Part shown: one piece after another, positions 30,437 through 35,235 of the stretch
Layout of the letters: every line of letters begins with the position of its first letter
Numbering within the stretch: position 1 is the first letter of the stretch
From: Roseibacillus sp.
GTDB lineage: Bacteria; Verrucomicrobiota; Verrucomicrobiia; Verrucomicrobiales; Akkermansiaceae
DNA length: 35,247 nucleotides
NCBI GenBank assembly: GCA_002709395.1
Contig: PAQU01000015.1
Coordinates: 1 to 35,247 of the forward strand
Direction: 5' to 3'
The notes under the pieces: generated by a model
What the model saw: the letters and a program-made list of their open reading frames with translations, nothing else
Told to the model about the DNA's origin: nothing
The model's database searches: none
Translations under genes and position numbers: made by a program

Positions 30437-31048
30437 ATGTCAGCGAGAACACTCACCATTGAAGATGCCAAGGCGGCCAGCATCACTGTCCTTGAGGACA
30501 GCGAGAAGGGTGGTCAGGCAGTCCACGATCTGATCGTGGCATACCAGGCGAACCGCCGGTCCGGTACCGCCAATACCAAGACGCGTGGGGAAGTCAGGGG
30601 AACTGGTAAGAAGATGTATCGCCAGAAGGGGACGGGCAACGCGCGTCACCGGACGTCAAAGGTTCCACTTTATGTCGGTGGAGGCGTCGCCCATGGTCCA
30701 CGACCAAGGGATTATTCGAAGCAGGTGCCCAAGAAAATTCGCAAGTTGGCCCTCCGGCGTGTCCTTGGTGACTGTATCGCCGAAGGCAAAATACAGGTGG
30801 TTGATTCTTTCGAGATCGCGGACGGAAAGACCAAGTCATTTGTAGCGGAGATAGGAAAGATTACCGAATCCGAAAAGGTTCTCGTGGTCTCTCCCAAGTT
30901 TGACGACAAGACCCTTCTGGCTCATCGGAACCTTCCCGGAGCTATGTGCCTTCCGGCTAGTGAGGTGAGTATCGAAGAGCTTCTTTATCACGACAGCATT
31001 ATTCTCACTGCTCCTGCCCTTGAGGTACTGGCATCACGGACTAACTGA
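30437..31048 (+). CDS. rplD: 50S ribosomal protein L4
   Basis: 203 residues. The basic loop that reaches the exit tunnel is intact: [20 protein letters not shown], then [18 protein letters not shown] and [20 protein letters not shown]. In enterobacteria L4 represses its own operon; no matching leader was sought in detail here. It has the strongest ribosome-binding site of the cluster, AAGGAGGA ending about eight bases before the ATG. Confidence 0.98.
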
Positions 31049-31068
31049 AGAAACAACCCTGCTTAACC

Positions 31069-31353
31069 ATGAGAGATATCTATTCCGTCATTGATAACGT
31101 GCGGTTATCCGAGAAGTCCACTCTTCTACAGGAGCTTAACAACGAATATGTATTCAAGGTGGATCGACGTGCCAACAAGATCGAGATCAAGCGTGCTGTG
31201 GAGCAGGCCTTCGGAGTAAAGGTCACTGGGGTGCGTACGGCGAACTACAGCGGCAAGTCCAAGCGCGTGCGCCGTGCTGACGAGGGTAAGACCGCATCCT
31301 GGAAGAAAGCCATGGTTCGCTTGAAGGAGGGGGACACCATAGACCTCATCTAA
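31069..31353 (+). CDS. rplW: 50S ribosomal protein L23
   Basis: 94 residues, of normal length. [41 protein letters not shown] and [16 protein letters not shown] are family blocks. L23 lies at the tunnel exit and is the docking site for trigger factor and SRP. The start is after an A/C-rich leader (CCTGCTTAACC) with no Shine-Dalgarno, 20 bases after rplD. Confidence 0.98.
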
Positions 31354-31403
31354 AGTCAGGAATCCATCAGTTCAAGATTCAGATATTAAACCAATTTCCA
31401 GTC

Positions 31404-32246
31404 ATGCCACTTAAAAGCTTCAAGCCAGTGACTCCCTCGAACCGCTACAAGATGTGGCCAACCTACGAGGAGATCACCAAGAAGAAGCCCGAGAAGGACC
31501 TGACCGAGCCGCTTCCGAGGAGTGGAGGTCGGAATAACCAGGGCAGGATCACGTGCCGCCACATTGGTGGGGGTCACAAGCGCAAGTATCGCCTGGCTGA
31601 CTTCAAGAGGCGCAAGCGTGAGATCGAGGCTCGTGTTACGGCGGTAGAGTATGATCCGAACCGCACCTGCCGCATCGCACTCATTCAGTATTCCGATGGA
31701 GAAAAGGCCTATATTCTCTGTCCGGTGGGTTTGCAGGTGGGAGCGACGGTGCAGGCCGGGGACAACGCCCCACCCTCTCCGGGAAATGCCATGCCTCTGA
31801 AGAGCGTGCCCCTTGGAACGGCAGTTCATAATATTGAGTTGCGCCCGGGGGGAGGGGGCAAGGTAGCTCGCTCAGCAGGCCAGCAAGCCGTGGTGTCGAA
31901 CCGGGAAGGTGGATACGCGCTTGTTAAAATGCCCTCGGGTGAAATCAGGCGCTTTCACGAGAATTGTTACTGCACCATCGGGCAGGTAGGGAACCGGGAT
32001 CATATGAATGAGGTTTCGGGTAAAGCGGGCCGGACCCGCTGGAAGGGAGTGCGCCCGACAGTGCGTGGAATGTGTATGAACCCAGTCGACCATCCGAATG
32101 GGGGAGGAGAAGGCAAGTCCAAGTCCGGTGGTGGGCGACAGCACCTGAAATCCCCCTGGGGACATACCAAGGGACAACGAACACGCTCCAAGTACAAGGG
32201 GAGCAACAAGTTTATCGTCGAGCGCCGCAAGTCCAAGAAGCGTTAA
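31404..32246 (+). CDS. rplB: 50S ribosomal protein L2
   Basis: 280 residues. [40 protein letters not shown] and the C-terminal [14 protein letters not shown] with the conserved His230, needed for peptidyl-transferase function, are present. The N-terminus [14 protein letters not shown] is of the usual kind. It starts 50 bases after rplW with no visible Shine-Dalgarno. Confidence 0.98.
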
Positions 32247-32258
32247 CCACTTTGAATT

Positions 32259-32528
32259 ATGCCACGTTCCCTTAAGAAAGGTCCTTTTGTTGACCAGAAA
32301 CTCCTGGCCAAGATCGATACTGCGGTCGCCCAGGGCGACAAGAAACCTATCAAGACATGGAGTCGTCGCTCCATGATAACACCGGATTTCGTAGGACTTA
32401 CCTTCATGGTCCACAGCGGAAAGGTTTTTACCAATGTGTATGTCACCGAGAACATGGTGGGTCACAAACTGGGTGAATTTGCGCCAACACGGATCTTCAA
32501 GGCTCACGGAGGCATGGGCAAAAAATAA
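32259..32528 (+). CDS. rpsS: 30S ribosomal protein S19
   Basis: 89 residues. [39 protein letters not shown] and [17 protein letters not shown] are universal S19 blocks; the protein contacts the 30S head with S13. It starts 12 bases after rplB. In most bacteria rplV follows at once; here a foreign-looking gene is inserted. Confidence 0.98.
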
Positions 32529-32565
32529 CACTCCGAAGTAGTCGTTAATAAAAAATCCAATTCTC

Positions 32566-33282
32566 ATGAAGAACACTCCCGCAAAAATAATACTCTGTGC
32601 CATGTTGGCAGCAGGGGCGGGAGTATCCGTGGCGGAGAATCAGCAATCGGACGAATCAAGTCGCCTCAAGTCGGAAAATGCCCGATTGAAAATTCGTAAC
32701 GCCAACCTGCAGAAAAGCCTGGTAGAGGCCAATCGTAGAGAGAAGGAATCCGCAGAAGCCCTGGTTAAAATCAGAGTAAGATTGCAGGCCCTTGGGAAGG
32801 ACCTCATCAGCGATGGTGATGAGCGAACGGTGGAAGCCTGGCAGAATGTAACAGTGCTGGATCGCCGTCTTCGCAGAATGGAGGAGGCTGCTATCCGGCT
32901 TTCTGCCGCAGCGCAGGAATTTATCAGGACCGCCATTACGTCCGACCCTGAGGCCCGGGCTCAGTTGGAGGCTTATCTGAGGGCTCTGGAAGTGGAGCTC
33001 GGTTTGCGCAACAAGCCCGAACGGAATATCGAGAGAGGGAACCTTCAGCACGCTTCAGTTAAAAGTATCGACGAGAAAAGTGGGTTGGTCGTTCTCAACG
33101 TGGGAGCCAAGGAGAATGCGCGAATAGGGATGGTGTTTAACATCATGCGTGGAGAGCAGATGGTGGCCGAGGCAATGGTGGCCGATGTGCGTCCTGATAT
33201 TTGCGGAGTGTTTGTCCAGAGGCTTGAAAATGACAACAACCCGGTGCGGTTCAACGATACTGCCTCTCTTAAGAAGAATTAA
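32566..33282 (+). CDS. Unknown secreted coiled-coil protein inside the S10 ribosomal cluster
   Basis: 238 residues, no family recognised. A clear signal peptide (MKNTPAKIILCAMLAAGAGV, cleavage probably after residue 23, VA/EN) is followed by a coiled coil with heptad-like Leu/Ile/Glu spacing (about 30-80). A helical region (80-155) and a small beta-rich domain (about 160-238) follow, with SGLVVLNVGAKENARIGMVF then a VAEAMVADVRPDICGVFV stretch. The beta part resembles the small C-terminal domains of some envelope proteins with the pattern G-V-x-L-N-x-G ... G-x-x-F, but I cannot name a family. It is 37 bases after rpsS and 15 bases before rplV, same strand, without a visible terminator or own promoter, so it must be co-expressed with ribosomal genes. 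It is presumably periplasmic. Confidence 0.8.
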   Translation: MKNTPAKIILCAMLAAGAGVSVAENQQSDESSRLKSENARLKIRNANLQKSLVEANRREKESAEALVKIRVRLQALGKDLISDGDERTVEAWQNVTVLDRRLRRMEEAAIRLSAAAQEFIRTAITSDPEARAQLEAYLRALEVELGLRNKPERNIERGNLQHASVKSIDEKSGLVVLNVGAKENARIGMVFNIMRGEQMVAEAMVADVRPDICGVFVQRLENDNNPVRFNDTASLKKN

Positions 33283-33297
33283 TCTCCCCCTCTAATC

Positions 33298-33942
33298 ATG
33301 GAAGTTCGTTCTATTTACAAAAATGCCCGGATCTCGCCCAAGAAGGCGCGGGATGTAGCCCGTGAGATTCAGGGCCTTCCCGTATCCGACGCAATTGATA
33401 CTCTCAATTTCACACCTAAGAAAGCGGCCTTTCTGATTGGGAAAACTCTCAAAAGCGCGGTTGCCAATGCGGAGAATAATCATGACCTCGCGGCCGACAG
33501 CCTTCACGTAAAGGAAGCGAACATCTCCGCTGGCCCCTCCTTCCGACGATACAAGCCGCGTGCCAGGGGGTCGGCCAGTCCGATTCGTAAACGGACCAGT
33601 CACATCTACATCATCCTGACCGATGAAGTAGAAAGTGACGAAAAGCCTGTTAGGGAGCGCAAACCAAGGAGCAAGAAGCCTGCCCCGGAGGAGCAGGAGA
33701 CTGAACCTGAGAAAGAGGAAACTGCTCCGGAAGAGAGCGATGAAGTAGCCACTGCTGAGGAGGCTCCAGTTGCAGGACAGGATTCTGCCGTAGTCGAAGA
33801 AAACGCAGAGGGGGAAGCAGATGAGACCCCGGAGGAAGTTAATGATGAGCCTTCCGAAGTAGCGGTTGCTGCCGAGGAAGAACCCGAAGATTCATCCGGG
33901 GTCGAGGAGGCCGCGGATGAAGAAGAAAAGAAAGAAGACTGA
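33298..33942 (+). CDS. rplV: 50S ribosomal protein L22 with long acidic C-terminal extension
   Basis: 214 residues. Residues 1-109 are an ordinary L22, with ARISPKKARDVAREIQGLPV, KKAAFLIGKTLKSAVANAEN and the RGSASPIRKRTSHIYIIL end that lines the tunnel. Residues 110-214 are an added low-complexity tail of Glu, Ala, Pro, Ser, Val and Asp. By my count there are about 44 acidic and 10 basic residues, most of the basic ones near the tail's start (RERKPRSKKP). Most L22 proteins end near residue 110. The reading frame is continuous, so it is not a frameshift artefact. It starts 15 bases after the secreted unknown and is followed by rpsC after 25 bases. The function of the tail is unknown. Confidence 0.95.
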   Translation: MEVRSIYKNARISPKKARDVAREIQGLPVSDAIDTLNFTPKKAAFLIGKTLKSAVANAENNHDLAADSLHVKEANISAGPSFRRYKPRARGSASPIRKRTSHIYIILTDEVESDEKPVRERKPRSKKPAPEEQETEPEKEETAPEESDEVATAEEAPVAGQDSAVVEENAEGEADETPEEVNDEPSEVAVAAEEEPEDSSGVEEAADEEEKKED

Positions 33943-33967
33943 GACCCTTTCCCCAAAACCAAGTATT

Positions 33968-34792
33968 ATGGGACAAAAAGTAAATCCCGTCGGATTCCGA
34001 CTCGTAGTCAACCGTGACTGGCGTTCCAAGTGGTATGCCGAGGGCGAGGACTATCGTGAGAAACTCCATGAAGATCTCAAGGTGCGAAAGTATCTTAGCG
34101 GTCGCCTTCAATTTGCGGCTCTTTCCAAGGTTGTGGTTGAGCGCGCGTGGAACAGTGTGAGGGTCACTCTGCATACGTCCCGACCGGGTCTGGTGATCGG
34201 GCGGAAAGGGTCTGAGATTGAGCGTATGACCAATGATATCTCAAAGATCTGCGGGGACGCTCAGGTCAAGATTGACATTGTGGAGGTCCGAAGTCCTGAA
34301 CTTGATGCTCAGTTGGTGGCCGAAAATGTGGCGGTGCAGCTGGAACGGAGGATCAGTTTCCGTCGTGCAATGAAGAGAGCGCTTCAGACCGCCATGGATT
34401 TTGGTGCAGAAGGTATCAGGATTCGTTGCGCTGGCCGTCTTGGTGGAGCTGATATCGCTAGGGCTGAATGGTATCGAGAAGGGAAGGTTCCCCTGCAAAC
34501 GTTGCGGGTGCCCATTGATTATGGTTTTGCCGAGGCCAGGACGGTTTATGGGATTATCGGTGTGAAGTGCTGGGTTAACCGCAAGGAGAAAAACGATAAG
34601 GAAGGAGCGGACCGAGGTTCTCGCCCTCCACGTCGGGATGATCGTCGCGGTGGCCGTGGACCTGGTGGCCGTGGACCCGGTGGACCTGGTGGCCGTGGGC
34701 CCGGTGGACCTGGTGGCCGTGGACCCGGTGGCCGTGGACCCGGTGGGCCCGGTGGACCCGGTGGACCCGGTGGCAGTAATAAACCCAGCTAG
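33968..34792 (+). CDS. rpsC: 30S ribosomal protein S3 with Arg/Gly/Pro repeat tail
   Basis: 274 residues from the ATG at 33968 ([12 protein letters not shown], the conserved S3 start); the frame is open to 33866 but that would run into rplV. The KH domain has GRKGSEIE (78-85) and the C-terminal S3 domain ends near [13 protein letters not shown] (about 207). The last ~68 residues are unusual: [14 protein letters not shown] followed by repeated RGPGG and PGG units up to SNKPS. S3 lines the mRNA entry channel and has helicase activity with S4 and S5. The tail is basic, in contrast to the acidic tail of the preceding L22. No Shine-Dalgarno precedes the start. Confidence 0.96.
34649..34774 (+). 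repeat. Variable 9/15-bp tandem repeat coding for RGPGG and PGG units
   Basis: Units GGTGGCCGTGGACC(C/T) (15 bp) and GGTGGACC(C/T) (9 bp) alternate through 126 bases inside the 3' end of rpsC. Both unit lengths are multiples of three, so gain or loss of a unit would not shift the frame. Silent C/T and A/G changes between copies show some divergence. Confidence 0.9.
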
Positions 34793-34812
34793 AAGTAAAA
34801 GGAACCAGAACA

Positions 34813-35235
34813 ATGGCACAGATTCCCAAACGCGTTAAATATCGTAAGTCGCAACGTGGCAACCGCGGCGGCAATGCCAGTCGTGGAGTGGACGTTAGCT
34901 TTGGCGATTTCGGCTTGCAGGCCCTTGACCGGGGTTGGATGAGCAGTCGCCAGATCGAAGCCTGCCGGGTTGCGATTAACCGCTATCTCAAGCGGAAGGG
35001 TAAGGTCTGGATCCGGGTATTTCCCCATAAGCCGATTACAGCCCGTCCTCCCGAAACTCGAATGGGTAAGGGTAAGGGACCAGTGGAAGGCTGGGTCGCC
35101 GTCATTCGACCAGGCACCATGCTTTTTGAAATAGCTGGTGTGCCTGAAAGCTCTGCCCGGGAAGCAATGCGTCTGGCTTCCTACAAGCTTGGAATACGGA
35201 CACGTTTCGTTTCGCGTTCCCACCACTCTGCATAG
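34813..35235 (+). CDS. rplP: 50S ribosomal protein L16
   Basis: 140 residues, complete. [52 protein letters not shown] and [16 protein letters not shown] are standard L16 blocks; the protein binds near the A site of the 50S subunit. AAAGGA lies about 11 bases upstream of the ATG. It is 20 bases after rpsC; only 12 bases of the window remain after the stop, where rpmC would be expected. Confidence 0.98.

Follow-up and report, generated by a model that had tools for sequence, protein, structure and literature searches.

A coiled-coil and beta-barrel protein predicted to be exported and to be encoded by a cistron of the S10 ribosomal operon in Akkermansiaceae and much of the Verrucomicrobiota

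INTRODUCTION

The S10 operon is among the most conserved gene clusters in bacteria, and in many bacteria the export genes secY, secE and yidC are found within ribosomal operons. Akkermansia muciniphila is a well-studied gut symbiont that is grown in pure culture. FlgT and TsaP both belong to rings of the cell envelope. FlgT, of the Vibrio flagellar H-ring (LPHT ring), is an exported protein with a small beta-barrel; MreC carries two barrels; and TsaP is a LysM protein that stabilizes the type IVa pilus secretin PilQ (PMC10653833). In addition, CT421.2, a hypothetical protein named from Chlamydia trachomatis, is reported as a signature shared across the PVC group (PMC3444138).

Here we describe a gene, called X throughout, that lies between rpsS and rplV in a genome of Roseibacillus sp. 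and its relatives. Our literature search found no paper on gene X or on an insert between rpsS and rplV.

RESULTS

Gene X in the S10 operon

The window is the whole stretch of DNA that was analysed, 35,247 nt in length. Its features in the S10 region are as follows.

30437..32246, + strand: rplD, rplW and rplB (uL4, uL23, uL2), S10 operon genes ahead of rpsS
32259..32528, + strand: rpsS (uS19), upstream neighbour of X (PF00203, E 4.6e-36)
32529..32565, + strand: rpsS-X gap of 37 nt (family median 26 nt)
32566..33282, + strand: gene X, predicted exported coiled-coil and beta-barrel protein; ORF with ATG start, 238 aa, backed by homologs and dN/dS
32566..32634, + strand: predicted Sec signal peptide, residues 1-23, cleavage between SVA and EN (sequence; rule-based pattern in 77 of 77 family members)
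32641..32790, + strand: predicted coiled-coil helix, residues 26-75 (AF2 helix; heptad enrichment, median z 4.1)
32818..33000, + strand: two more predicted helices within residues 85-145 (AF2 helices 85-122 and 128-145)
33037..33273, + strand: predicted C-terminal beta-barrel domain, residues 158-236 (AF2 pLDDT 96.8; alignment A3; FlgT/TsaP resemblance)
33283..33297, + strand: X-rplV gap of 15 nt (family median 21 nt)
33298..33942, + strand: rplV (uL22; long acidic tail at the C-terminus), next gene downstream of X (PF00237, E 7.5e-36)
33968..35235, + strand: rpsC and rplP (uS3, uL16), S10 operon genes downstream of rplV

The rpsS stop codon ends at 32528 and rplV starts at 33298, so that the ORF coordinates and the Pfam names of both neighbours bear out the placement and the two gaps given in the original prediction, which had been made from the letters of this DNA. 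Among the other ribosomal proteins, uL2 was named by Pfam (E 1.7e-51), and uL4, uL23, uS3 and uL16 from their sequence and the conserved order in relatives. X had also been said to have no visible promoter or terminator of its own, and indeed neither a promoter-like site nor a + strand terminator-like site was found in 31350-34000, from rplB to rplV. A Rfam scan of the window returned nothing besides one tRNA. Two of the neighbouring ribosomal proteins have distinctive tails. The acidic tail of uL22 occupies 33598-33942; in the window's genus these tails are 76-136 aa long with a net charge of -19 to -43, and in some other Akkermansiaceae they are shorter or less acidic. The end of uS3 (window about 34600-34792) is a repetitive Gly/Arg/Pro-rich tail with GRGPGG repeats.

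X thus resembles an internal S10 operon cistron in three respects: it is on the same strand, its median gaps in the family are 26 and 21 nt, and no intervening promoter or + strand terminator was found. The arrangement strongly predicts that X is co-transcribed within the operon. Codon adaptation, as a proxy for expression, gave no sign of high X expression and is uninformative on its level, as the ranges overlap (X 0.676, ribosomal proteins 0.66-0.74, background ORFs 0.62-0.74). In the genome that we took as the A. muciniphila type strain (G119), X is a protein of 236 aa and the order reads S12-S7-EF-G-S10-L3-L4-L23-L2-S19-X-L22-S3-L16-L29-S17-L14. The ribosomal cluster Amuc_0294-0308 of this species was upregulated as a unit by RNA-seq in GlcNAc media relative to mucin (PMC11480725), and gene order by itself puts X inside this cluster. 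The original prediction had also named a separate promoter, with expression unrelated to rpsS and rplV, as evidence against itself, and on this the published cluster bears only indirectly. In the locus tags of PMC7671984, L16 is gene335 and S10 is gene344, so that just one additional gene fits between the two; we infer that X is AMUC_RS01705.

Distribution in the family and order

X homologs, one per genome, were found in 137 of 145 Akkermansiaceae genomes, G119 included, and in all 109 with at least 90% completeness and at most 5% contamination. The eight assemblies without X (G029, G054, G089, G099, G110, G132, G136 and G137) are also without rplV, which indicates that the S10 region is missing there, not X alone; many of the surveyed genomes are MAGs. 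X lies directly after rpsS, and directly before rplV where the contig reaches, in 80 of the 81 family loci read. The exception is a MAG, G080, in which X has been relocated. Its new surroundings (contig C194, 1148-1864; L354) hold a HAD-like phosphatase gene and an mpl-like murein peptide ligase gene. The locus of A. muciniphila isolate Mouse_2 is 99.6% identical to one family member, and this match identifies genus g3 as Akkermansia and the family as Akkermansiaceae (NCBI lineage).

At the rank of order, every genome has an X match (143/143; 140/140 among those of high quality), and X lies between rpsS and rplV in 19 of the 21 representatives read (L124-L143, L359). In the remaining two, L133 and L134, it adjoins rplV, and no rpsS was seen in the stretch that was read. 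The matches in G220 and G228, whose assemblies have no rplV, are weak. One genome of family f2, G227, holds two X genes (G227:C509, L092, and G227:C168, L143), one of which matches Akkermansiaceae with E 4e-90 and is probably MAG contamination. Occurrence in this strain only, which the original prediction had named as evidence against itself, is not what the genomes contain: X is family- and order-wide.

Distribution in the phylum and outside

The distance between rpsS and rplV was measured in 77 further class and phylum genomes that have both genes, a tool-drawn sample that is unbalanced over families. Distant versions of X are found throughout the phylum, and the sampled genomes fall into three arrangements. 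X sits inside an rpsS-rplV interval of 417-967 nt in 22 genomes. In another 28 the two genes are adjacent without X, a count to be read as absence at the locus and not from the genome, given limited sensitivity to short, fast-evolving versions. In the last 27 they are apart, on different contigs or far from each other on one. Contig ends cannot account for all of these splits, since several lie within long contigs, two of which have both genes. X is directly upstream of rplV in at least 14 of the 27 split-operon genomes, and this makes rplV a firmer and more persistent linkage partner of X than rpsS is. Seven others of the 27 belong to genus g89 and have no X beside rplV.

In many families of the phylum the S10 operon is broken after rpsS, ahead of X or rplV, and X is usually the first gene of the second half; examples are L206, L209, L212, L215, L218, L220, L222 and L364. 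Genus g89 has an X-like gene with a signal peptide, coiled coil and the same barrel elsewhere (L161, G274:C14, 1891-2652), near an ftsH-like gene and an FHA-domain-like gene on the opposite strand.

As a control, named genomes were scanned with a uL22 profile, which gave 80 loci. The 43 from other, non-PVC phyla all lack X, with no more than 81 nt between rpsS and rplV, and this refutes X as a general feature of the S10 operon. X is present in 28 and absent in nine of the 37 labelled Verrucomicrobia, Lentisphaeria, Kiritimatiellae, PVC or uncultured. The assumption that the rpsS-rplV junction is normally empty does not hold for this phylum, where an insert is common.

Evolution and selection

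Among close relatives the median dN/dS of X is about 0.046, beside 0.024 for uS19, 0.016 for uL2 and 0.078 for uL22. Pairwise distances of X over 75 family members correlate with those of uL2 (r = 0.80), uS19 (0.72) and uL22 (0.66), where uL2 and uL22 correlate with each other at 0.59; these values retain shared phylogeny and are no evidence of interaction. X has passed down by vertical inheritance and is under purifying selection. The presence of X in each high-quality family genome, its dN/dS and the short non-PVC gap together show that X is more than a product of chance.

Protein architecture

The N-terminus of X, MKNTPAKIILCAMLAAGAGVSVA followed by EN, reads as a signal peptide, and by a simple rule-based check all 77 of the family members examined combine a hydrophobic core with an A-x-A-like site. 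Export of X is strongly predicted on this pattern. A lipoprotein is not indicated: a lipobox-like motif occurs in just three of the 77, and 45 have no cysteine after residue 24. In the distant versions L154, L156 and L173 the N-terminus looks membrane-anchored instead. Heptad a/d enrichment points to a coiled coil (median z 4.1; z above 1.64 in 94% of members), and the AlphaFold model places helices at 26-75, 85-122 and 128-145; its beta domain, at about 163-235, has a pLDDT above 90. The signal peptide, the coiled coil and the small beta domain of the original prediction have all held up, the first as a prediction still. The split-operon families have a long coiled coil, and versions of 130-160 aa have almost none; the rod is not essential to the X family, because versions with the beta domain only exist in some lineages. 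The barrel is the constant and most conserved part across the phylum (alignment A3, 68 sequences), and modelled in isolation it reaches pLDDT 96.8. The mature protein has a median pI of 5.8 over the family, against 9.7-11.6 for the neighbouring ribosomal proteins, uL22 with its acidic tail excepted.

Searches for known relatives

The single X protein gave no meaningful match in Pfam, NCBIfam or PDB sequence searches, and 56 members and eight distant versions gave no Pfam or NCBIfam family, only scattered chance matches to coiled coils. The original prediction would have been overturned by a known family with a cytoplasmic ribosomal role; none emerged, and the mature protein is not basic. Foldseek with the full-length model yielded weak barrel matches only. 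The isolated barrel gave clearer ones, with no structure at E <= 0.001. The best are FlgT structures 8z5n and 3w1e (E 2.3e-3 to 8.8e-3), with query-normalised TM-scores of 0.74 and 0.76 at rmsd 5.4-5.6 and 8% identity; N-terminal barrels of F1-ATPase match about equally (0.64-0.70 at rmsd about 3). The best PDB profile match is to residues 318-401 of Myxococcus xanthus TsaP (3jc8/3jc9), with a full-sequence E of 1.8e-4 that is made up of two weak pieces (best single-domain i-Evalue 0.085). These matches are suggestive of a barrel of the small class found in FlgT and TsaP, and kinship appears likely.

Four identities were considered and rejected. X is not MreC: it has no PF04085 match, hhalign gives a probability of 5.5%, and 19 of 20 relatives have a separate genuine MreC; the weak MreC matches have a PDB profile E of 0.26 and a Foldseek E of 8.8e-3 (2j5u, full-length model). 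It is not TsaP, as Pfam scans find no LysM and a secretin is present in 75 of the 77 class and phylum genomes regardless of X. Nor is it a ribosomal protein, given the signal peptide in 77 of 77, the median mature pI and its absence at this position in the 43 non-PVC loci. The product of the salt-tolerance gene stlA (PMC3861447) is described as a four-transmembrane protein, and stlA was set aside as a possible relative on that description.

DISCUSSION

Based on these observations, we propose a model in which X is a periplasmic scaffold or tether, a coiled-coil oligomer with its barrel docked on an envelope structure, supplied from an S10 operon cistron in step with growth. We give this model an even chance of being correct. 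X would be exported to the periplasm by its signal peptide, some distant relatives being held by a membrane anchor. The coiled-coil rods may self-associate into an oligomer, and the C-terminal FlgT/TsaP-like barrel would probably dock onto some envelope structure. As an internal cistron, X would be supplied according to ribosome synthesis and growth rate, which would suit a scaffold, collar or tether that is needed in proportion to new envelope. Most of the order, Akkermansia included, thus probably makes a part of the cell envelope as one unit with its ribosomes. The coupling to growth is not indispensable, because 28 of the 77 class and phylum genomes have no X at the locus and X is found out of the operon in g89 and G080. 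More tentatively, and with some doubt on our part, the Verrucomicrobiota as a whole might hard-wire an envelope scaffold, linked ancestrally to rplV, into the S10 operon and so hold an envelope structure in fixed proportion to ribosomes.

What else could place such a gene here? The TsaP profile match raises the possibility that X is an accessory collar, similar to TsaP, on an outer-membrane secretin such as that of type IV pili, with the barrel binding PilQ, and the sole two of the 77 genomes without any secretin (G253 and G293, family f7) are also without X. However, 26 of the 28 genomes without X at the locus do have a secretin, so that X is not needed for secretins, although this co-occurrence is uninformative for a TsaP-like role when secretins are nearly universal. 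There is no LysM domain in X, nor would a pilus part have to follow ribosome synthesis, and we regard a collar as unlikely. The established residence of export genes in ribosomal operons would instead fit a periplasmic or membrane-associated translocon factor whose gene stays among ribosomal genes in the way that secY, secE and yidC do. Verrucomicrobia also export unusually many proteins, and about 26% of A. muciniphila genes encode signal peptides (PMC3048395). Yet X matches no chaperone, translocon part or foldase in sequence or fold, and lineages without it presumably still export proteins, which leaves a role in export improbable in our judgement.

Three further explanations were considered. 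Many families split the S10 operon exactly between rpsS and X or rplV, and in at least 14 genomes X heads the second half, as if it were kept to separate or couple the two halves of the operon and not for its protein; purifying selection at the amino-acid level (dN/dS 0.046), the conserved signal peptide and barrel, and the persistence of X outside the operon in G080 and g89 make this very unlikely. We give still less credence to a cytoplasmic, ribosome-associated factor with a hydrophobic N-terminus that is no signal peptide. Operon membership and the conserved adjacency to rplV are what one would expect of it, but the A-x-A-like cleavage site is universal among the 77 members, the mature protein ranges from acidic to neutral, and its domain kin are envelope proteins. 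In favour of a non-adaptive insertion or hitchhiker fixed in one lineage, the loss of X from the locus in several lineages of the phylum shows that it is dispensable over long times; set against 109 of 109 and 140 of 140 high-quality genomes of the family and order, and against purifying selection, such an origin is hardly credible.

What are the implications of an envelope scaffold in the S10 operon? An order-wide and largely phylum-wide protein, predicted to be exported, that has no family name is unexpected in this operon. Co-transcription with ribosomal proteins is one simple solution for matching envelope growth to biosynthetic capacity, and X makes this solution testable; since A. muciniphila can be cultured, the location, the abundance and the null phenotype of X are all within reach of experiment. 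If the more tentative, Verrucomicrobiota-wide reading is true, translation capacity would be tied to envelope growth directly at the genetic level. Moreover, within a single phylum the S10 operon comes apart repeatedly at the boundary between rpsS and X-rplV, which is useful for studying how conserved operons disassemble.

How does X compare with the systems already described? CT421.2 can be set beside it by description only, and is presumably much smaller than X. FlgT is exported, as X is predicted to be, and has a small beta-barrel of what is probably the same fold class; X differs in its single barrel joined to a coiled coil, in lacking a Pfam FlgT match and in having no flagellar context. 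MreC offers a similar plan of anchor or signal peptide, coiled coil and beta-barrel, with two barrels where X has one. TsaP, an envelope protein as X is proposed to be, appears to follow X in the order of its C-terminal motifs (VVDKGSADGV..G..F.I.R / IG..MV.EV.E / L..GDR), but X has a coiled coil in place of LysM and occurs independently of secretins. X also has paralogs in the Verrucomicrobiota that combine an anchor, a coiled coil and the same barrel, such as the tandem pair G119:C1:1478520-1479598 (L338) in Akkermansia; pairs of this kind also occur in other family and order genomes. They have the beta domain of X (E 1.7e-9 and 1.2e-11) and are laid out in much the same way, whereas their N-terminus looks more like a membrane anchor than like a signal peptide that is cleaved, and their genes lie away from the ribosomal genes among which X is found.
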